Shown here: positions 12,046 through 18,934 of the stretch, one piece after another
Position numbering within the stretch: the first letter of the stretch is position 1
Layout of the letters: the number at the start of each line of letters is the position of its first letter
Source: a virus
IMG/VR virus record: IMGVR_UViG_3300027708_000330
Location: 1-21,511 of that record
DNA: 21,511 nucleotides
Direction: 5' to 3' (one strand)
Notes under the pieces: generated by a model
Database searches by the model: none
Seen by the model: the letters and a program-made list of their open reading frames with translations, nothing else
What the model was told of the DNA's origin: nothing
Program-made: the position numbers and the translations under genes

Positions 12046-13197
12046 TTATTCTATAGGATAGAATCTAAAACATCCTTTAATACCACGAGTTATGTCAGTG
12101 GTATCGTTGAGCCAGCTGTCTCCGATACGTTTGACCATTTCTTTGATGCCTTCTTGAGCATTACGAACAGCTATGTTAGTTTCTGGATTTTGTGCCCAAA
12201 ACCAGTTGTCTCTTTCGCTCAGCATTAAATTTTGTGGTTTAGGCGCCACTAAGGTTGTAGGATCCCAACCAGGATATATCAGCTGATGATAAATGTCATT
12301 TCTGAGTCGCTGACCCGATGGATGCAACGGCAAATAATTATGTTCGCCTGGTGCTAGCCACGAAGCTATTAACTTATCGCTGGCCCGCATAACTTTTAAT
12401 AATATGTGGCATTGTTTTGCTATAATAGGAGCAGACGTGGGAGACCAAAAGAACCATTCATCAAAGTAGCCCTGAGTGTCAAGTGACTGTAACCGTAAGT
12501 TTGTTTCGGAAAAAACATCAACAAATAAAGTATGATACTTTCCGTTGATTCTTCTAATTCTAGGTTTTTCGGCGCCCCATAAAAAGCACATCTTTTTACC
12601 ACTGTCCATAATACGTTTATAGTCGTCGGTGTAATCTCGGATATAACTCCTGGCCAAACTATTTGCAGACATGATGCCTTTGATATTATATATGTACTCG
12701 TACTTAACATCCGGTCGTAGATACAAGTCGTCGATGATAGTACTGAGATCGATTACACGGTGTCGTATATTGGGATACTTTTCGATTATTTTTTCTGTAT
12801 GTGGTATCGCTGTAAAAAAGATTTCTTCGTTAAATACACTATGTTTGTCACGATCGGCAGCATAACTATGTATTTGCACAATCTCATCAATTTTAATATC
12901 ATTCTTTAAAAACGCATTTAGCATACACCAACTATCGGCACCGCCGCTGTAGAATAAAACTACATAGTCGTAGGCATCTCGTATTTCTTGTGCTCTTCGT
13001 CGATACAACTCATCCAACGATTCGGTGGGTTCCTGAGTCCAAGGATACGCATCATAAATTTTATCATTGAAGTGCCATACCAGTGGTGTACCGGTACGTT
13101 GCATTTCTTCGATTGCTTGCAATTTGCTGTAAGTTTTGAATGCGGTGCCAACGGTATAATAACCAAATTGGTCACCAGAATATGGTAGAATGGGCAT
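12046..13197 (-). CDS. PP-loop ATP pyrophosphatase-type protein
   Basis: This is the only minus-strand gene. Its 383-residue product has the PP-loop SGGADS at residues 84-89 inside VVLFYSGGADSWCML. That is the AMP-binding signature of N-type ATP pyrophosphatases, which include asparagine synthetase, NAD synthetase, QueC and tRNA-thiolation enzymes. The rest has no recognised domain, so the substrate is open; adenylation of a carboxylate, tRNA base or small molecule is possible. The length exceeds that of QueC, and there is no glutamine amidotransferase domain with N-terminal Cys. It is convergent with tRNA-Leu (6-base gap) and divergent from the dehydrogenase at 13262. A palindromic -10 at 13226-13235 lies in the shared upstream region. 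It may be a later-acquired or separately regulated cargo gene. Confidence 0.75.
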   Translation of the reverse strand: MPILPYSGDQFGYYTVGTAFKTYSKLQAIEEMQRTGTPLVWHFNDKIYDAYPWTQEPTESLDELYRRRAQEIRDAYDYVVLFYSGGADSWCMLNAFLKNDIKIDEIVQIHSYAADRDKHSVFNEEIFFTAIPHTEKIIEKYPNIRHRVIDLSTIIDDLYLRPDVKYEYIYNIKGIMSANSLARSYIRDYTDDYKRIMDSGKKMCFLWGAEKPRIRRINGKYHTLFVDVFSETNLRLQSLDTQGYFDEWFFWSPTSAPIIAKQCHILLKVMRASDKLIASWLAPGEHNYLPLHPSGQRLRNDIYHQLIYPGWDPTTLVAPKPQNLMLSERDNWFWAQNPETNIAVRNAQEGIKEMVKRIGDSWLNDTTDITRGIKGCFRFYPIE

Positions 13198-13205
13198 TTA
13201 GATTA

Positions 13206-13234
13206 TTGTATTTTAAATTGAAAGATAGTATACT
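13206..13234 (+). promoter_or_regulatory. Sigma70-type promoter for the dehydrogenase unit
   Basis: TTGTAT at 13206-13211 and TATACT at 13229-13234 are separated by 17 bases. The -10 lies in a perfect palindrome TAGTATACTA (13226-13235), so the same bases also read TATACT on the minus strand toward the PP-loop gene. No good minus-strand -35 is seen. Confidence 0.55.
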
Positions 13235-13261
13235 ACAACAACATGAATATTTACCACTCAT

Positions 13262-14026
13262 ATGACCTTTGATAGACTTAATACTCTCCAAGACCAAGTA
13301 GCAGTTATTACCGGCGGCACCGGTAAAATTGGGTATGCTACCGCTATCCGGTTAGCTGAAAAACGAGCCCGCATAGTAGTACTAGTGCGTAGAAATTTAG
13401 ATCAAGCACAAGCAATGATGGATGCTTTGCCAAACCCAGAGCTAAATCATTTTGCCATACTAGCGTCAGTTGCTGATACCACAGCACTTGAATCTGCCGC
13501 ACAACAAGTACGTGATCGATGTGGTAGGTGTGATATACTAGTTAACAATGCTGGTGTTTCAAAAACTATAAGAACTAAAGAACTGGATGAATACACCGAT
13601 ACATTTGTTGATGCAATGCTAACAATTAACTTACGTTCAGTATTTTCAACCATCAGAGTGTTTTTGCCATTGCTAAAACAAAGTCATGAAGGAATGATTG
13701 TTAACATTGGATCGGGCTCTGCCCTGCGTCCCGGCCACGGCAGTAATATGGCATATACAGCGGCCAAGGCAGGTATAGAAACATTGACTAAAAACTTAGC
13801 ATTAAGATTAGCACCCAATATTCGTGTTATATCAATCTGCCCGAGTTCTGTAAATACAGGATTTCTAGACAACCCCGATGAATTTTATATCAAAGCCGCG
13901 GAACAAACGCCACTTAAAAGAATTGCTGTCCCTGATGATATAGCATCGGTGGTTGAAGCATGTGCAACCATAATGCGTTTTGTTACTGGCAACTGTTTTG
14001 TAGTGGATGGCGGAAGAATTTTATGA
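13262..14026 (+). CDS. Short-chain dehydrogenase/reductase
   Basis: The 254-residue protein is a classical SDR of standard length. It has the cofactor motif TGGTGKIG at 17-24 and NNAG at 95-98. The catalytic Ser is at about 151-153, and YTAAK gives Tyr165 and Lys169. A PSSVNTGF segment and a C-terminal VVDGG close the family pattern. It oxidises or reduces a hydroxyl/keto pair with NAD(P)H. Arg residues after the second strand (LVRRN) hint at NADP(H). It overlaps the next gene as ATGA, and that gene encodes a beta-keto acid cleavage enzyme. The plain reading is a two-step route in which the SDR interconverts a beta-hydroxy and a beta-keto acid that the partner cleaves. Such metabolic cargo is unusual in T4-like phages. 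The ribosome site is weak. Confidence 0.92.
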   Translation: MTFDRLNTLQDQVAVITGGTGKIGYATAIRLAEKRARIVVLVRRNLDQAQAMMDALPNPELNHFAILASVADTTALESAAQQVRDRCGRCDILVNNAGVSKTIRTKELDEYTDTFVDAMLTINLRSVFSTIRVFLPLLKQSHEGMIVNIGSGSALRPGHGSNMAYTAAKAGIETLTKNLALRLAPNIRVISICPSSVNTGFLDNPDEFYIKAAEQTPLKRIAVPDDIASVVEACATIMRFVTGNCFVVDGGRIL

Positions 14027-14901
14027 AGACGATATTGACCTGCGCGGTAACTGGTAGCGGGACTACATTAAAACAAAATCCTAACTTACCGATTACTCCT
14101 GAGCAAATTGCTACCAGTGCATTAGACGCTGCCACTGCCGGTGCCGCAGTAGTACATCTACATGTCAGGGATCCGGTCACTGGAGAACCCAGCATGGATA
14201 TTAACTTATACAAAGAAGTTTTTGATCGAATCAAGCAAAAAAATACAGATGTTATTATTAACTTGACCACAGGCCCGGGATCAACAGGATCATCCGGTGT
14301 AGTTTTTGGTCAAGCAGATCCGTTATTTAAATCAGCAGAAGAACGTGTAGCACACATATTAGAATTGCATCCGGATATTTGCAGTTTAGACTTTAATACG
14401 ATGAACAGAGGTCCAAAAAATATTACAGTAAACTCTATTCCAGTGGTACGAGAAATGGCACGTCTTATCAAGCAGACTGGTGTTAAGCCCGAGTTAGAAA
14501 TTTTTGATAGCGGTGACTTGCATATTGCCAAAACATTAATTGCAGATGGCCTAATAGAAGGAGAACCACTGTGGCAAATTGCCACAGGCATTAACTATGG
14601 CTGGAACTCATCAATTGGAACACTACTGTATGCCCATCAATTGTTACCAAAGGATGCAACGTGGTATGCATTTGGTATAGGATCCAAACAAATGCCATTT
14701 GTAGCATTATCAACAATACATGGTGGACATGCCAGGGTAGGACTTGAAGACAATGTATTCATTGAACGTGGGGTATTAGCCAAAACTAATGCTGAATTAG
14801 TTACTAAAGCAGTTAGAATTATACAAGATTTAGGTAACACTATAGCAACTCCTGCAGAGGCAAGAAATATACTACAACTATCAAGAGTAATTCGTACCTG
14901 A
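14023..14901 (+). CDS. Beta-keto acid cleavage enzyme (BKACE, DUF849)
   Basis: I start the gene at the ATG at 14023, coupled to the preceding stop as ATGA; the open frame upstream is a shadow of the SDR gene. The 292-residue product has the family length and motifs: TCAVTGSG, LPITPEQIA, AGAAVVHLHVRD with metal ligands His45 and His47, GHARVGLEDN with Glu242, and a closing ATPAEARNIL. BKACE enzymes use Zn and acetyl-CoA to cleave a beta-keto acid into acetoacetate and a new acyl-CoA. Known substrates include 3-keto-5-aminohexanoate and dehydrocarnitine. All visible catalytic residues are kept, so activity is likely. The substrate of this copy is unknown. No terminator follows, and a solute-binding-protein gene starts 48 bases downstream. 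Confidence 0.92.
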   Translation: MKTILTCAVTGSGTTLKQNPNLPITPEQIATSALDAATAGAAVVHLHVRDPVTGEPSMDINLYKEVFDRIKQKNTDVIINLTTGPGSTGSSGVVFGQADPLFKSAEERVAHILELHPDICSLDFNTMNRGPKNITVNSIPVVREMARLIKQTGVKPELEIFDSGDLHIAKTLIADGLIEGEPLWQIATGINYGWNSSIGTLLYAHQLLPKDATWYAFGIGSKQMPFVALSTIHGGHARVGLEDNVFIERGVLAKTNAELVTKAVRIIQDLGNTIATPAEARNILQLSRVIRT

Positions 14902-14913
14902 ATCAGGTAAAAT

Positions 14914-14921
14914 GATAAATA
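14914..14921 (+). promoter_or_regulatory. Candidate T4-late-type promoter box
   Basis: GATAAATA at 14914-14921 differs from the T4 late box TATAAATA at one base. It lies 28 bases before the start of the solute-binding-protein gene, leaving room for a short leader with AGGAG. A similar arrangement precedes the paralogue at 17482. Confidence 0.4.
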
Positions 14922-14949
14922 AAAATAAGAACTTCAGGAGATTTCCCAC

Positions 14950-15921
14950 ATGAATCAACCACGCAAAATCCGTTGGCTATTAGAACACGAACCAGTTGAG
15001 CTTTTCTTACGCACAGCTAAAGAGTTTGACAAGCGTATTCGCGCTCTAACAAACGACGAAATCCAAGTAGAAATGTATAAAAAAGAAGAATACCAAGCTA
15101 AATTTGGTGTTGCTAACGAAATGATGGACTCAGTAGGCTTAATGCACTCTGGCGATATCGAAATGACACAGACACAAATTGGCAACGTTGGTCAGTGGTA
15201 CTGCCCAGACTTCTTTGCACTAGAGATGCCATTCTTATTTGACAGTCACGAACACGCTACTCGCGTACTTGACGGCAAAATTGGTGAAAATCTATTAGAT
15301 ACAATCGAGCAAAATGCAAGTGCTAAAGGTTTAGCATTTACGTACTCAGGTGGCTATCGTGTGTTTGCATCCAACGACAAACTAACCACAGTTGAAGATC
15401 TAAAAGGTCTAAATTGTGTAACTGACATTAGTACTGTTCGTATTGATACAGCTAAAGCGTTTGGCTTGAATGTAATTCCATTTAAAGATGCTAGTTTACA
15501 AGGTGATCAATCTTATGTTAAGATTGACCGTTACGAAGCAAGCCAAACACGTGAAACAACATTGCCACGTTACGAAGCAGAAGCTTACCATGCTGGTCAT
15601 CACCACATTGGTGTTACTAACCACAGCATGTATCTAACTACTATCTTAGTTAACAAAGATTTCTTTGCCAGCTTGACAGCAGATCAACAAGCCGCAATGA
15701 AACAAGTTGCCATGGAAGTTGCTAAGTTAGAACGTGAATGGTCAGTGACTGATGCAGATACATTGGCCACAGACACAGCTAAACACGCTGAAATGGGTAT
15801 TACCTATACAGAGTTTGCTGATAGCGAAGTAGCTAAATTAAAACAAGCAGTTGAGCCATTGTACGAAAAATATCGTGCAATTTTTAGCCCATTGTTAATT
15901 GACAACATTCGCTCTGCTTAA
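14950..15921 (+). CDS. TRAP-type solute-binding-protein homologue without signal peptide (copy 1)
   Basis: The 323-residue protein follows the DctP family along its length. It has SGDIEMTQTQIG, ALEMPFLFDSHEHATRVLDG (90-109), YSGGYRVFAS (132-141) with the structural Arg137, TVEDLKGL (147-154), a late FFASLTADQQAAMKQ segment and a C-terminal helix. Two features are odd. There is no signal peptide or lipobox, since the conserved fold begins at residue 7. Where TRAP proteins have the carboxylate-selecting Arg after LKGLKI, there is Val157. It probably stays in the cytoplasm or virion and binds a different ligand, or none. An AGGAG ribosome site and a late-type box suggest strong expression. A Prx-like gene starts 8 bases after its stop, as after the paralogue at 17482. 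Confidence 0.8.
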   Translation: MNQPRKIRWLLEHEPVELFLRTAKEFDKRIRALTNDEIQVEMYKKEEYQAKFGVANEMMDSVGLMHSGDIEMTQTQIGNVGQWYCPDFFALEMPFLFDSHEHATRVLDGKIGENLLDTIEQNASAKGLAFTYSGGYRVFASNDKLTTVEDLKGLNCVTDISTVRIDTAKAFGLNVIPFKDASLQGDQSYVKIDRYEASQTRETTLPRYEAEAYHAGHHHIGVTNHSMYLTTILVNKDFFASLTADQQAAMKQVAMEVAKLEREWSVTDADTLATDTAKHAEMGITYTEFADSEVAKLKQAVEPLYEKYRAIFSPLLIDNIRSA

Positions 15922-15929
15922 TTAATCCG

Positions 15930-16553
15930 TTGAAGTATCCTGAAAAACAATTCGAGTTGTATGACAAGAATTGTTTTTCTACGACTAGCTGGCAAGAAAT
16001 ATTTTCTGGGCGAAGAGTTTTAATTTGCTCATTGGTGAGACCGCCATTGTGCTTTACACAGAATTATCTAATAGATTTACAAATCTATAGAGAAATGTAC
16101 AAGGCACTTGGTGTAGACGAAGTTTATTTATTAAGTCGATCTCGGCTTGGGCTGGTTAGTTTGTTAAACAGAACAACAACGCCTTGTATTGCTGACGTAA
16201 ATGCAGAGTTTACTTTACATTTAAATAGTCTGGTCAATAAAAAAGAATACACTAAGCAACATTTGTCATCTTTTTGGGCGTATCAGGTGTTAATCAATGA
16301 TGGTGAAGTGGAACAGATCACACAACAACCTCTAGAAAATTACTTGGCCACCATGCTCAAGGATACCAAGAACATTGCCGCACTCAAAGCCATTGGATTA
16401 AAAAACGAAAAGTTGATTTGGACACCAACCTTCTTGACCCGAACTATCAAGTTGGCCAGGGATATTTTTTACTACCGACTACACCCAAACATTGAACTAA
16501 AAAAACATTTGTTTTCAACTTATCCAAACTTGGTTGACAATAAAGATAAATAA
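15930..16553 (+). CDS. Prx5-type peroxiredoxin-like protein lacking catalytic residues (copy 1)
   Basis: The 207-residue frame begins at a TTG 8 bases after the preceding stop; no better start keeps the fold. Residues 25-130 follow the Prx5/AhpE-like redoxin pattern: RRVLICSL, FTQNYLIDLQIY, MYKALGVDEVYLLS, DVNAEFTLHLNSLVNK, SFWAYQVLINDGEVEQI. In active Prx5 enzymes FTPTC carries the peroxidatic Cys and SWRY carries the catalytic Arg. Here these read FTQNY (42-46) and FWAY (115-118). A Cys at 41 lies just outside the normal place. It is probably not a peroxidase, and the fold may serve as a binding module. The last 60 residues are basic and helical, unlike Prx. It always travels with the solute-binding homologue in this window. 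Confidence 0.65.
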   Translation: MKYPEKQFELYDKNCFSTTSWQEIFSGRRVLICSLVRPPLCFTQNYLIDLQIYREMYKALGVDEVYLLSRSRLGLVSLLNRTTTPCIADVNAEFTLHLNSLVNKKEYTKQHLSSFWAYQVLINDGEVEQITQQPLENYLATMLKDTKNIAALKAIGLKNEKLIWTPTFLTRTIKLARDIFYYRLHPNIELKKHLFSTYPNLVDNKDK

Positions 16554-16562
16554 ATGTATAAT
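16534..16562 (+). promoter_or_regulatory. Perfect consensus sigma70 promoter
   Basis: TTGACA at 16534-16539 and TATAAT at 16557-16562 are separated by exactly 17 bases, which is the full consensus. It lies across the end of the preceding gene. The expected start is about 16569, at the 5' end of a strongly structured RNA that ends in an intrinsic terminator. Confidence 0.85.
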
Positions 16563-16568
16563 TGATAA

Positions 16569-16780
16569 CATTATGACACTAAGAACTTGTAAACATCTTT
16601 CATCTACACAGCCAGTATTAGGCGGGTTAGCCTATTGGCCTGTGTCAGCACCGATGTTTAATAGTAATGATCGTGGCACAGAGATTAACAGTAGGGTCCA
16701 AGAGGGATGGGATGATTAAGTAACACACTTAACAACCACAAACTTAAAGGACCCTAGGATTAAAAACCCTAGGGTTTTTT
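16569..16780 (+). ncRNA. Structured RNA with attenuator-like 3' end
   Basis: The transcript from the consensus promoter can fold into nested helices. These are 16590-16597 with 16653-16660 (8 perfect pairs), 16606-16611 with 16640-16645 (6 pairs), and 16619-16623 with 16630-16634 (5 pairs). A second domain has 16692-16699 pairing perfectly with 16749-16756, and a small hairpin 16716-16721/16727-16732 inside it. The 3' arm of that second helix overlaps the 5' arm of the terminator, so the two structures exclude each other. This is the layout of a riboswitch or attenuator, or of a stand-alone small RNA. No known class was recognised. The exact 5' end is an estimate. Confidence 0.65.
16573..16719 (+). 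CDS. Possible short ORF inside the structured RNA
   Basis: A 48-codon frame from ATG 16573 to TAA 16719 encodes a peptide starting MTLRTCKHLSS. It would begin about four bases after the predicted transcription start, so it would be leaderless and has no ribosome site. The same bases form long helices, which argues that the RNA itself is the product. It is listed because a leader peptide that controls the downstream terminator is a real alternative. Confidence 0.2.
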   Translation: MTLRTCKHLSSTQPVLGGLAYWPVSAPMFNSNDRGTEINSRVQEGWDD

Positions 16781-16785
16781 GTTTT
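16751..16785 (+). terminator. Intrinsic terminator with competing upstream pairing
   Basis: Bases 16751-16758 (ACCCTAGG) pair with 16768-16775 around a 9-base loop, followed by a T run at 16775-16785. The bases 16749-16756 can instead pair with 16692-16699, which would break the terminator stem. The downstream genes (51-residue protein, structured RNA, tRNA-Tyr) would then be switched by the choice of fold. Confidence 0.8.
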
Positions 16786-16797
16786 AAGGAGCAGGAA

Positions 16798-16953
16798 ATG
16801 TTAGAAAAACAAAAATTATTAGAAAATCAGTTTTTGCTAACGTCAGAGCAGAAAATTGCTTTAATGGAAGCAAAGGTTGCGAGAGCAGAAGCTCAAGTCA
16901 AACAGCTGGTAGAACATACTAAACTGTTGGAACAGGCTCGCGCTTGCAAGTAA
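16798..16953 (+). CDS. 51-residue coiled-coil protein of unknown function
   Basis: A consensus AAGGAG at 16786-16791 lies six bases before the ATG. The 51-residue product begins MLEKQKLLENQFLL and continues as one amphipathic helix with heptad-like Leu/Ala spacing (LMEAKVARAEAQVKQLVEHT). It ends in Ala-Cys-Lys. The sequence predicts a short dimeric or trimeric coiled coil. No family is recognised. It lies directly after the terminator at 16751-16785 and directly before the 345-base structured RNA, so its expression depends on read-through or on a further promoter that I do not see. Confidence 0.65.
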   Translation: MLEKQKLLENQFLLTSEQKIALMEAKVARAEAQVKQLVEHTKLLEQARACK

Positions 16954-16959
16954 GGAGTA

Positions 16960-17305
16960 AGTGTATAAAGAGGAAACGAGGTCCTCGCTAGGCACTATAA
17001 ACATCTAGCAAACGGGCGGACAGGATACATAAAAGCCGGGCGATAACCGGTTAGTAAGACTCCTGGGTAGGGTACCATCCCTATCATATCCTGCGGCAAC
17101 GCAGGGTATTCTAAAGCATACGAGACGAGAGCGTCCAAAGGTCCTGAACACCTTGTGGGACAGGGCACCGGAATCACCGTGACACTAGTATGCTTTATAA
17201 TACCCTTTAGAAGAACACGCCCAAGCACCGCACCGATAAAGCGGACTGCCAGAGCAACCGTCAGATAAACGGCCGCTGTTATCCAACACAGCAACTAAAG
17301 GGTAG
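16960..17305 (+). ncRNA. Large structured RNA of unknown class before tRNA-Tyr
   Basis: About 345 bases without a credible gene fold into many helices. The strongest is 17104-17121 with 17188-17205 (7 plus 9 pairs around a 2x2 loop). Others are 16987-16991/17005-17009, 17021-17027/17087-17093, 17036-17039/17047-17050, and 17068-17072/17079-17083. There is also 17090-17095/17100-17105 with a GCAA tetraloop, 17240-17244/17273-17277, and inside it 17258-17261/17269-17272. The tetraloop stem competes with the 17087-17093 strand, so two states are possible. The motifs of RNase P RNA and tmRNA are absent. Large phage RNAs beside tRNAs (GOLLD, ROOL) are known, but this one is shorter and I cannot match it. 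Strand follows the tRNA and G-U pattern and is inferred; the ends are approximate. Confidence 0.65.
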
Positions 17306-17313
17306 ACTCATAC

Positions 17314-17398
17314 GGAGAAGAAGCATCAATGGTGATGCAGTGGACTGTAAATCCGCCACCTTCGGGTACGACTGGTTCGATTCCAGTATTCTCCACCA
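17314..17398 (+). tRNA. tRNA-Tyr (GTA)
   Basis: This is a class II tRNA of 85 bases including CCA. It has acceptor GGAGAAG/ATTCTCC with a G-A mismatch at the seventh pair, and D arm GCATC/GATGC. The anticodon stem GTGGA/TCCGC encloses loop CTGTAAA (anticodon GTA). A long variable arm and T stem ACTGG/CCAGT follow. It lies directly after the large structured RNA, so the two probably come from one precursor. Confidence 0.93.
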
Positions 17399-17415
17399 TA
17401 TATTCCTGATTTTTA

Positions 17416-17454
17416 TATAAATAATTGAGCAGTATTTCAGATTGCACATAAATA
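17416..17454 (+). promoter_or_regulatory. Two candidate T4-late-type promoter boxes
   Basis: A perfect TATAAATA lies at 17416-17423. A second ATAAATA, preceded by C, lies at 17448-17454. Both are in the 83-base gap between tRNA-Tyr and the second solute-binding-protein gene, 28 or more bases before its ATG. Late boxes of this type are read by the phage gp55 sigma factor in T4. Confidence 0.5.
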
Positions 17455-17481
17455 CATATATAAAATTCCAGGAGATTCTTG

Positions 17482-18429
17482 ATGCAAAAAACTAACAAAA
17501 TTAAGTGGCTAATCGCACACGAGCCGGTACATCTTTTCTTACGTACAGCAGAAGCATTTGCCGCTGATGTTAAGTCTAAAACAAATGGCGAAATCGATAT
17601 TGAAATTTATACAGCAACTGAGTACGCTGATAAATTCCACAACGGTCACAAAGAAAACCCATTGACACACATGGAAAATGGCACACTAGAAATGAGCCAG
17701 TTACACATTAGTCAATTATGGAAATACAACACACCGGCATTTATGGCTTTAGAAATGCCATTCTTGTTTAGCGATCATGATCATGCTACTCGTGTACTAG
17801 AAGGCAACATTGGTCAAGACATGCTATTGAACTTGAAAGAAAAATCACCAGCACGTGGATTAGCGTTCACATACTCAGGTGGTTATCGTGTTATGGTTAG
17901 CGATACAGAAGTTAACGAATTAGCTGACTTCCGCAACATGAAGTTCTACACAGGTACAAACCCAATCGGTATGGACACTATCGAAGCAATTGGCGGTCAA
18001 CCTGATCCACACGCTATCGATCATTTCTGGCAAACAATTGGTAAAGAAGGCGACAACCACGATGCGGTTGATACAACTTTACCACGTGTACTAGCCACAG
18101 TTAACCAAACTAGCAAGCGTTATGTTACAGACACCAAGCACAGCTTGTTCTTGACCAGTATCATCGTTAGCGAATCATGGTGGAACAGTTTGACAGAAGA
18201 ACTAAAAGAAATTTTAGCTACTGCCGCTACTGATGCCGCACGTTTAGAGCGCAAGTGGTCCATTGCAGACAGCGAAGCAATCATGAACGATGCACCAAAG
18301 TACGGTTTAGAGTACAAAGCATTAGAACAATCCGAAATGGACAAGTTCCGTGCTTTAACAGAACCATTGTATACCAAGTATGAATCTATTTTCATGCCAG
18401 GTTTAATTAACGGAATTATCCGCGGTTAA
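17482..18429 (+). CDS. TRAP-type solute-binding-protein homologue without signal peptide (copy 2)
   Basis: I use the ATG at 17482, seven bases after AGGAG; a TTG one codon earlier is too close. The 315-residue protein is a clear paralogue of the one at 14950. Shared blocks include KWLIAHEPVHLFLRTAEAF, ALEMPFLFSDHDHATRVLEG (89-108), GLAFTYSGGYRVMVS with Arg136, and KLERxWS-like ARLERKWS with a C-terminal LTEPLYTKYESIF. It too lacks a signal peptide. At the place of the TRAP selectivity Arg it has Tyr156 (FRNMKFYTG). Divergence from copy 1 is considerable, so the duplication is not recent or was brought in from different sources. Two late-type boxes and a strong ribosome site point to abundant late expression. 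A Prx-like gene follows, as after copy 1. Confidence 0.8.
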   Translation: MQKTNKIKWLIAHEPVHLFLRTAEAFAADVKSKTNGEIDIEIYTATEYADKFHNGHKENPLTHMENGTLEMSQLHISQLWKYNTPAFMALEMPFLFSDHDHATRVLEGNIGQDMLLNLKEKSPARGLAFTYSGGYRVMVSDTEVNELADFRNMKFYTGTNPIGMDTIEAIGGQPDPHAIDHFWQTIGKEGDNHDAVDTTLPRVLATVNQTSKRYVTDTKHSLFLTSIIVSESWWNSLTEELKEILATAATDAARLERKWSIADSEAIMNDAPKYGLEYKALEQSEMDKFRALTEPLYTKYESIFMPGLINGIIRG

Positions 18430-18435
18430 TAATCG

Positions 18436-18464
18436 TTGCAATAGTTTTAGTTTTAGTATATAAT
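18436..18464 (+). promoter_or_regulatory. Sigma70-type promoter before the second Prx-like gene
   Basis: TTGCAA at 18436-18441 and a perfect TATAAT at 18459-18464 are separated by 17 bases. The start would be near 18471, only about two bases before the ATG at 18473, so a transcript from here would be leaderless. Confidence 0.6.
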
Positions 18465-18500
18465 CAGACTCTATGAAAGATAATCTTTTAGAGTCTGATT
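18462..18500 (+). repeat. 11-base inverted repeat around a start codon
   Basis: AATCAGACTCT at 18462-18472 is perfectly complementary to AGAGTCTGATT at 18490-18500, with a 17-base loop that begins with the ATG of the Prx-like gene. The left arm overlaps the -10 box and the presumed start of transcription. It may be an operator in DNA. In a read-through transcript it may be a hairpin that holds the start codon in its loop. Confidence 0.75.
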
Positions 18501-18934
18501 CCTTTTGTGCAAACCGAATTCTAGTATTTGGTATTAATCGAATTCAAAGTCATCCTACAATAAACCACGTTAAACAAATCAACGAAATGCATGAGCAGTT
18601 TATTTCTGCCGGCATTGACGAAGTGCTGTTTGTTTCAGTATGTGATTTTTTGTTGTTTGAGCCAATGATGGCCAAGCTGGCACCAACTGTTAAATCAATA
18701 CAATTGGATAACCCAGACAATGTGACTGCATTACAAAAATTGTTTGGTAGAAAAGGAAATCTTAGATTCCTGCAAGAGTACTGGCAATTTGCGGCTGTTG
18801 TGAATAAACAACAGGTTGAATACTATGTAGAGCAACCGTTTACTATAAAACTTGGACCAGATACCAGAGCTGACATTTACAGCAATGTACATCCAGAAAA
18901 AGTTCTAGCATGGTTGTCCAATAAATCAGTTTAA
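18473..18934 (+). CDS. Prx5-type peroxiredoxin-like protein lacking catalytic residues (copy 2)
   Basis: The 153-residue protein follows the Prx5 pattern closely: RILVFGIN, HPTINHVKQINEMHEQF, SAGIDEVLFVSVCDFLLFEPMM, LFGRKGN, YWQFAAVVNKQQVEYYVEQP. In active enzymes TPTC carries the peroxidatic Cys and SWRY the catalytic Arg. Here they read HPTI (27-30) and YWQF (103-106), so both are lost, as in copy 1. The only other Cys are at 12 and 57, away from the active site. Copy 2 lacks the long basic C-terminal extension of copy 1. No Shine-Dalgarno sequence precedes the ATG, which lies inside an inverted repeat next to a promoter. The recurring partnership with a TRAP-type homologue suggests the two proteins interact or share a ligand. 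Confidence 0.68.
   Translation: MKDNLLESDSFCANRILVFGINRIQSHPTINHVKQINEMHEQFISAGIDEVLFVSVCDFLLFEPMMAKLAPTVKSIQLDNPDNVTALQKLFGRKGNLRFLQEYWQFAAVVNKQQVEYYVEQPFTIKLGPDTRADIYSNVHPEKVLAWLSNKSV

Follow-up and report, generated by a model that had tools for sequence, protein, structure and literature searches.

The window analysed here, the whole 21,511-base stretch of IMG/VR record IMGVR_UViG_3300027708_000330, comes from a T4-like phage; this contig has eleven tRNAs and encodes RecA/UvsX-like and gp32-like proteins. Twice in it, at 14950/15930 and 17482/18473, a gene for a homologue of TRAP-type solute-binding proteins (DctP-like) is followed by one for a relative of peroxiredoxin 5 (Prx-like), as confirmed by a check of the open reading frames (ORFs). 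We put at about one half the probability that the DctP-like protein serves as a virion-associated accessory made late and in abundance and that the Prx-like protein, which has lost its active site, is its dedicated low-copy partner. New in the gene comparison is that DctP genes are preceded by a T4-type late promoter of their own, resemble capsid and sheath genes in codon usage and, in relatives, occupy positions in virion modules, whereas Prx genes have neither a promoter of their own nor such codon usage.

The loci read were the best 80 of 422 DctP-like loci in IMG/VR. Near-identical contigs recur among them, distinct proteins are counted where stated, and all proportions are descriptive, related sequences not being independent. 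The 62 distinct phage DctP-like proteins fall into a branch with the signature LFxRTA (27 proteins, including those of the window; hereafter the RTA branch) and a sister branch with the signature RAA (35 proteins).

Cyanomyoviruses and T4 are known to use NATAAATA/TATAAATA as their late promoter, and NATAAATA has been reported as the late promoter of T4-like cyanophages (PMC2984593). DctP starts are preceded on the sense strand, at a distance of some 25-60 bases, by ATAAATA. Within 80 bp of the start this motif is present on the sense strand of 62 of 84 DctP genes and on the antisense strand of 9, compared with 84 of 643 other genes and 1 of 27 Prx genes (all three sets include near-identical contigs). 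Among distinct proteins, T/NATAAATA lies closely upstream in 26/27 of the RTA branch and 25/35 of the sister branch. Both window cassettes, encoded on the plus strand, have the motif, at 14915..14921 in cassette A (28 bases from the ATG) and at 17448..17454 in cassette B (27 bases from the ATG), with a second, farther upstream copy in B at 17417..17423. The sequence also reveals an AGGAG ribosome-binding site ahead of each DctP gene (14936..14940 and 17470..17474). Plain AT-richness was rejected as the source of the motif: overall counts are at chance level, yet the signal lies in position and strand.

The genome-wide analysis of late motifs and codons used G001, a 180 kb relative in which gp17, gp18, gp20, gp21, gp23 and gp55 are recognisable. 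ATAAATA precedes 27/174 of its genes on the sense strand versus 4/174 on the antisense strand, and the genes so marked include gp6, gp25, gp20, gp18 and tail-fibre-like genes. As for gp23, taken as a positive control, the motif was not found within 120 bp of it; this gene probably lies inside an operon. With gp23 and gp18 of G001 as the reference for codon adaptation, the ranks among 165 genes are 6, 7 and 10 for the three DctP genes of that genome and 80, 118 and 127 for the Prx genes paired with them. In the window, DctP-A and DctP-B rank 1 and 2 of 22, and Prx-A and Prx-B 15 and 8; the DctP scores (0.76 and 0.75) compare with 0.78 for gp23 of G001. DctP genes of the sister branch reach the level of tail sheath and tube genes in L161, L163, L153 and L160. 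Their positions in this branch are between gp19 and gp20, between gp16 and gp17, beside gp13, after gp23 and after gp4, the portal being confirmed by phrog_213. Because of the promoter motif, codon bias and module positions, we infer that the DctP-like protein is probably a late bulk product made alongside virion parts, with its partner made in smaller amounts.

According to Pfam, both window DctP proteins belong to DctP (PF03480), with 129 bits for copy A (E=3.5e-37) and 135 bits for copy B (E=4.2e-39) against a cut-off of 23.4 bits. The AlphaFold model (pLDDT, the predicted per-residue confidence, 89.7) has TRAP solute-binding proteins as its best Foldseek matches in the PDB (TM-score ~0.75-0.86, E 1e-25). 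The Prx genes of the window have no Pfam match; they match phrog_2281, 'peroxyredoxin antioxidant' (2.4e-9 for A, 2.6e-10 for B), a family of T4-like cyanophages to which they are homologous, and the model (pLDDT 86.8) is closest to the hybrid Prx5 1nm3 and to Prx3 5k2j (TM-score ~0.65-0.69). The predicted models thus agree with both family assignments, which settles the worry of the first-pass annotation that one fold had been misassigned, and its view that both folds are retained holds.

DctP-like protein A (14950..15921, 323 aa) and its partner Prx-A (15930..16553, 207 aa, TTG start, with an additional C-terminal segment) belong to a cassette class designated III; DctP-B (17482..18429, 315 aa) and Prx-B (18473..18934, 153 aa) belong to class I. 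The start of DctP-B is the ATG at 17482, the TTG at 17479 being merely the mechanical first start. The copies are as diverged as had been claimed, with 37% identity between the DctP proteins (E 2e-76) and 22% between the Prx proteins (E 1e-7).

A signal peptide is lacking in all 62 distinct phage DctP-like proteins, which have at most 6 residues ahead of the first strand; intact relatives from Bdellovibrionota mostly have 15-49 residues there. A signal peptide hidden by a missed start codon was excluded, the ATG being preceded by a strong AGGAG and the start being the same in all relatives. Without a signal peptide, the DctP-like protein therefore cannot work in the periplasm. The canonical carboxylate-binding arginine of the KxR motif is lost throughout the RTA branch (27/27), with Y, V, A, I, T or G in its place (Val in DctP-A, Tyr in DctP-B), and this branch has TT-x-PR where TRAP proteins have QENP. 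The sister branch retains both this arginine and GG[YF]R in 34/35. With TRAP solute-binding proteins (DctP PF03480; SiaP, 4p47, 4pdd) the phage proteins share the sequence family, the full-length two-lobed fold, the arginine of GG[YF]R and several other motif residues; unlike them, they have a T4-type late promoter, no signal peptide and no membrane subunit DctQ or DctM that could be recognised by eye among neighbouring ORFs, where no family search was made and most contigs are fragments. By descent, the protein thus belongs to the DctP superfamily; by its defining features, with neither signal peptide nor, in the window's branch, the arginine, it falls outside the TRAP binding proteins.

As for the Prx-like partner, the complete TPxC motif and the catalytic arginine are both missing in 26/26 DctP-linked proteins, all of which have also lost one residue from the active-site loop. 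In the window, TPxC is absent from both copies, and the arginine is replaced by Ala in Prx-A and by Gln in Prx-B. In contrast, unlinked phage Prx proteins are of the active type, retaining Cys, Thr and Arg in 51/51 (one has T for P). To say that the linked group has no cysteine is nevertheless too strong, judging by the alignment, because a Cys aligned near the old site persists in L142 and L146, and the class III copy of the window has one close by. In the Prx tree a branch supported at 99/97 separates all unlinked, active-type proteins from the others. This topology is consistent with a single origin of the pseudo-Prx proteins, although these have long internal branches. By descent they are members of the Prx5 superfamily, with the fold of peroxiredoxin 5 (1nm3, 5k2j); by defining features, as the active site is gone, they do not count as peroxiredoxins. 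The loss of family-defining residues in both partners, noted from the two window copies, thus extends across many relatives, and the evidence says that the one protein is not a functional component of a transporter and the other not a functional peroxidase. Automatic annotation names such genes 'TRAP transporter' and 'peroxiredoxin', and they would be read as metabolic helpers.

A Prx-like gene follows DctP in 25/27 of the RTA branch and directly in loci L006-L018; 24 cases were found by the script rule, and the Prx gene of L142 was missed by it, being hidden through overlap with an early alternative start. The two exceptions, L019 and L022, have a TctC-type binding protein downstream in place of Prx. 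In the RAA branch, a Prx gene follows in 0/32 loci with enough sequence. G001 has three cassettes, one of each class, and G003 has two (classes I and III). In trees of 12 DctP proteins and their 12 Prx partners the same grouping was obtained, with the window pair at 17482, G001-a, G003-a and L010 in class I, G001-c, L013 and L014 in class II, and the window pair at 14950, L018, G001-b, G003-b and L016 in class III. The mirror-tree correlation of the two distance matrices is 0.81 (permutation p ~5e-5). Because both trees give the same three classes, the comparison shows the pair to be inherited, as far as these trees go, as a unit whose partners are not swapped. The genes overlap by 20 bases in three pairs, and Prx diverges faster, the class I pairs of the window and G001 differing by 58% in Prx and 15% in DctP.

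These results modify two claims of the first-pass annotation. It had called the cassette duplicated; two pairs are indeed present, but a recent tandem duplication is excluded, since the copies belong to different, anciently diverged classes common to other phages. It had also read preserved pairing as a sign of joint function, to be refuted by homologues occurring singly. Conserved pairing stands for the window's branch, with 25/27 loci, congruent trees and both site losses; the wider families do contain single homologues, as most phage Prx5 proteins are active and have no DctP beside them, and the DctP sister branch has no Prx. Obligate pairing is thus, on the loci read, a property of one branch, in which the two residue losses coincide.

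In the favoured mechanism, phages would have adopted a TRAP-type binding protein, removed its signal peptide and placed it under a T4-type late promoter. The product would be made late and in large amount, and would most likely join the virion or assemble with it as a decoration-like accessory. In the window's branch the carboxylate-clamping arginine would have been lost and a dedicated Prx5 relative with a decayed peroxidase site gained as a partner, transcribed from the same promoter, apparently at a much lower level. We infer that this partner probably contacts the DctP-like protein of its own class, acting as a folding or assembly chaperone or as an adaptor; it would occupy or reshape the DctP binding cleft.

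Several points weigh against this reading. In L185 and L192, two sister-branch loci that contain gp23, the DctP codon score is at the level of gp22 and below that of gp23; codon bias is, moreover, a proxy for expression, and the reference set was chosen by the authors. In G001 and in the window, the cassettes are found within or close to the tRNA region, outside the structural module. Some late genes are not structural, and a product that appears late, abundant and encoded next to virion genes need not be in the virion; we know of no T4 decoration protein with a DctP-like fold. Matched trees of adjoining genes follow from joint inheritance and would not by themselves prove contact, and the Prx-free sister branch shows that DctP needs no partner in general. 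A virion decoration, one of the roles first proposed, nonetheless gains support, all of it indirect, from the late promoter, the capsid-like codon usage and the positions in structural modules.

Ranked after a virion accessory with its partner, and less likely, is a late, abundant cytosolic ligand-binding protein that would serve virion production by sequestering, storing or sensing a metabolite, with the Prx-like protein tuning the ligand site; the cytoplasmic sensor or sink among the roles first proposed thus keeps some probability. The lack of a signal peptide in 62/62, which would keep the protein in the cell, agrees with it, as do the intact fold (TM-score ~0.75-0.86) and the sister branch, where retention of the arginine and of GG[YF]R suggests that ligand binding is probably still selected. 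The idea is made doubtful by the loss of the arginine in every protein of the window's branch, by repeated insertion into head and tail modules, which is unexpected for a metabolic helper, and by capsid-level codon bias, a high price for a sensor. The third candidate, a receptor mimic, is improbable: a solute-binding fold borne by the virion would dock at entry to a TRAP complex of the host, to a related complex of its inner membrane or to an envelope ligand, with classes matching different hosts. Late and abundant synthesis, a retained fold and several diverged classes per phage fit it, whereas the carriage of two or three classes together does not.

Defence, redox and ordinary transport roles are unlikely. 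A two-gene operon with a fast-evolving partner would suit a defence, counter-defence or redox complex, but a complete Prx site in 0/26 speaks against redox chemistry, late timing is a poor fit to counter-defence, and no defence genes came to notice next to the cassettes, for which PADLOC was not run; the defence role suggested earlier thus finds no support, and any such complex is very improbable. Least likely of all is an auxiliary metabolic gene of the ordinary sort, in which a binding protein copied from a host transporter would boost uptake as proposed for cyanophage PstS: the DctP homology is clear and some relatives also have TctC/Bug binding proteins that retain signal peptides, but the DctP-like protein has no signal peptide, TRAP membrane subunits went unrecognised in the neighbourhoods judged by eye, and the arginine is lost in the window's branch.

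No phage system with this pair was found in the open-access literature, in line with the earlier statement that none is described. Tail-fibre proteins with dedicated chaperones and the T4 decoration proteins Hoc and Soc are known phage systems. They resemble the favoured reading in their expected logic, an abundant late protein with a low-copy, fast-evolving, locus-matched helper; they differ in that the folds are unrelated and the DctP-like protein is a putative virion component. An accessory virion protein made late and served by a helper would be nothing new in kind among phage systems, though such a role has not been described for the parts used here; should these parts do something else, the system could stand further from known ones. 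If the product is late, abundant and linked to the particle, it would be an unrecognised accessory protein that uncultured phages of freshwater and marine origin share in their hundreds. The paired disappearance of both active sites would then be a rare, testable joint repurposing of a binding protein and an enzyme. More tentatively still, these would form an undescribed, widespread class of T4-like virion proteins derived from a transporter binding protein, in one branch of which a co-diversified pseudo-Prx possibly takes over the emptied ligand site, so that up to three orthogonal pairs per phage serve as non-interchangeable binding modules.

As for distribution, single sequences as queries gave few relatives in IMG/VR, a three-sequence alignment 19 loci and a 15-sequence alignment all 422. 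A tblastn search of 50,697 deposited phage records with DctP queries returned no family member; all matches were distant, with less than 30% identity, and most lay in records lacking annotation, while one of the matched records has an annotated bacterial TRAP receptor. Because of these 422 loci versus none, the family is, by these searches, widespread among uncultured phages and absent from those deposited. The closest bacterial relatives of phage DctP come mainly from Bdellovibrionota assemblies (~32-40% identity; L202-L204, L206 and others) and share the FTYSGG[YF]R and HEP motifs; they differ in that most intact ones have signal peptides and most retain the arginine. Two of them, L202 and L203, both with signal peptides, stand beside a Dlt-like gene set (AMP-ligase and acyl carrier in L202, MBOAT in both) and an NMT1-type ABC transporter; the ligand of this orphan binding protein may hint at the ancestral one.

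In three loci (L116 4896-5874, L137 1989-2940 and L144 1982-2939) a DctP-like gene of the arginine-keeping type is broken at an identical place into two overlapping ORFs, an N-half and a C-half with an overlap of ~16-22 bases; a two-chain protein, a frameshift and a shared lesion are the candidate explanations. TctC/Bug-type binding proteins with signal peptides adjoin DctP-like genes in L114 (1-784 and 3565-4464), L116 (5962-6876), L019 (5572-6654) and L022 (4372-5349), three of them with a TctC Pfam match, one under the curated cut-off.

Between tRNA-Leu and the first DctP gene, the window has an island (12046-14901) with an ATP-pyrophosphatase-like gene on the minus strand (12046-13197), a short-chain dehydrogenase and BKACE, a beta-keto acid cleavage enzyme (E 9e-94). 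The close relative L003 is without this island, and DctP there directly follows tRNA-Leu. ATP-pyrophosphatase-like proteins ('NPKLGYY... YSGGADS') recur near DctP cassettes (L112 3208-4521, L113 7308-8603, L205 and L116, which has several such genes in a row). After cassette A, a small conserved stretch with an ORF (MTLRTCKHLSS...) at 16582-16782 has ~82% DNA identity to L001 and is followed by a terminator-like hairpin.

Further on, at 16960-17310, a strongly structured non-coding RNA (z -5.3) stands at the head of the tRNA array, ahead of tRNA-Tyr (17314-17398). No convincing match of the RNA itself to an Rfam 15 family was obtained in the loci tested, and no match among deposited phages. 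Its relatives were found at 18 distinct loci, often where a phage tRNA array begins, and an alignment of 12 sequences supports 36 pairs, 19 of them with compensatory changes. Judged by eye, the RNA is able to enclose a tRNA-like segment within a long stem, and it looks like a new phage RNA family.

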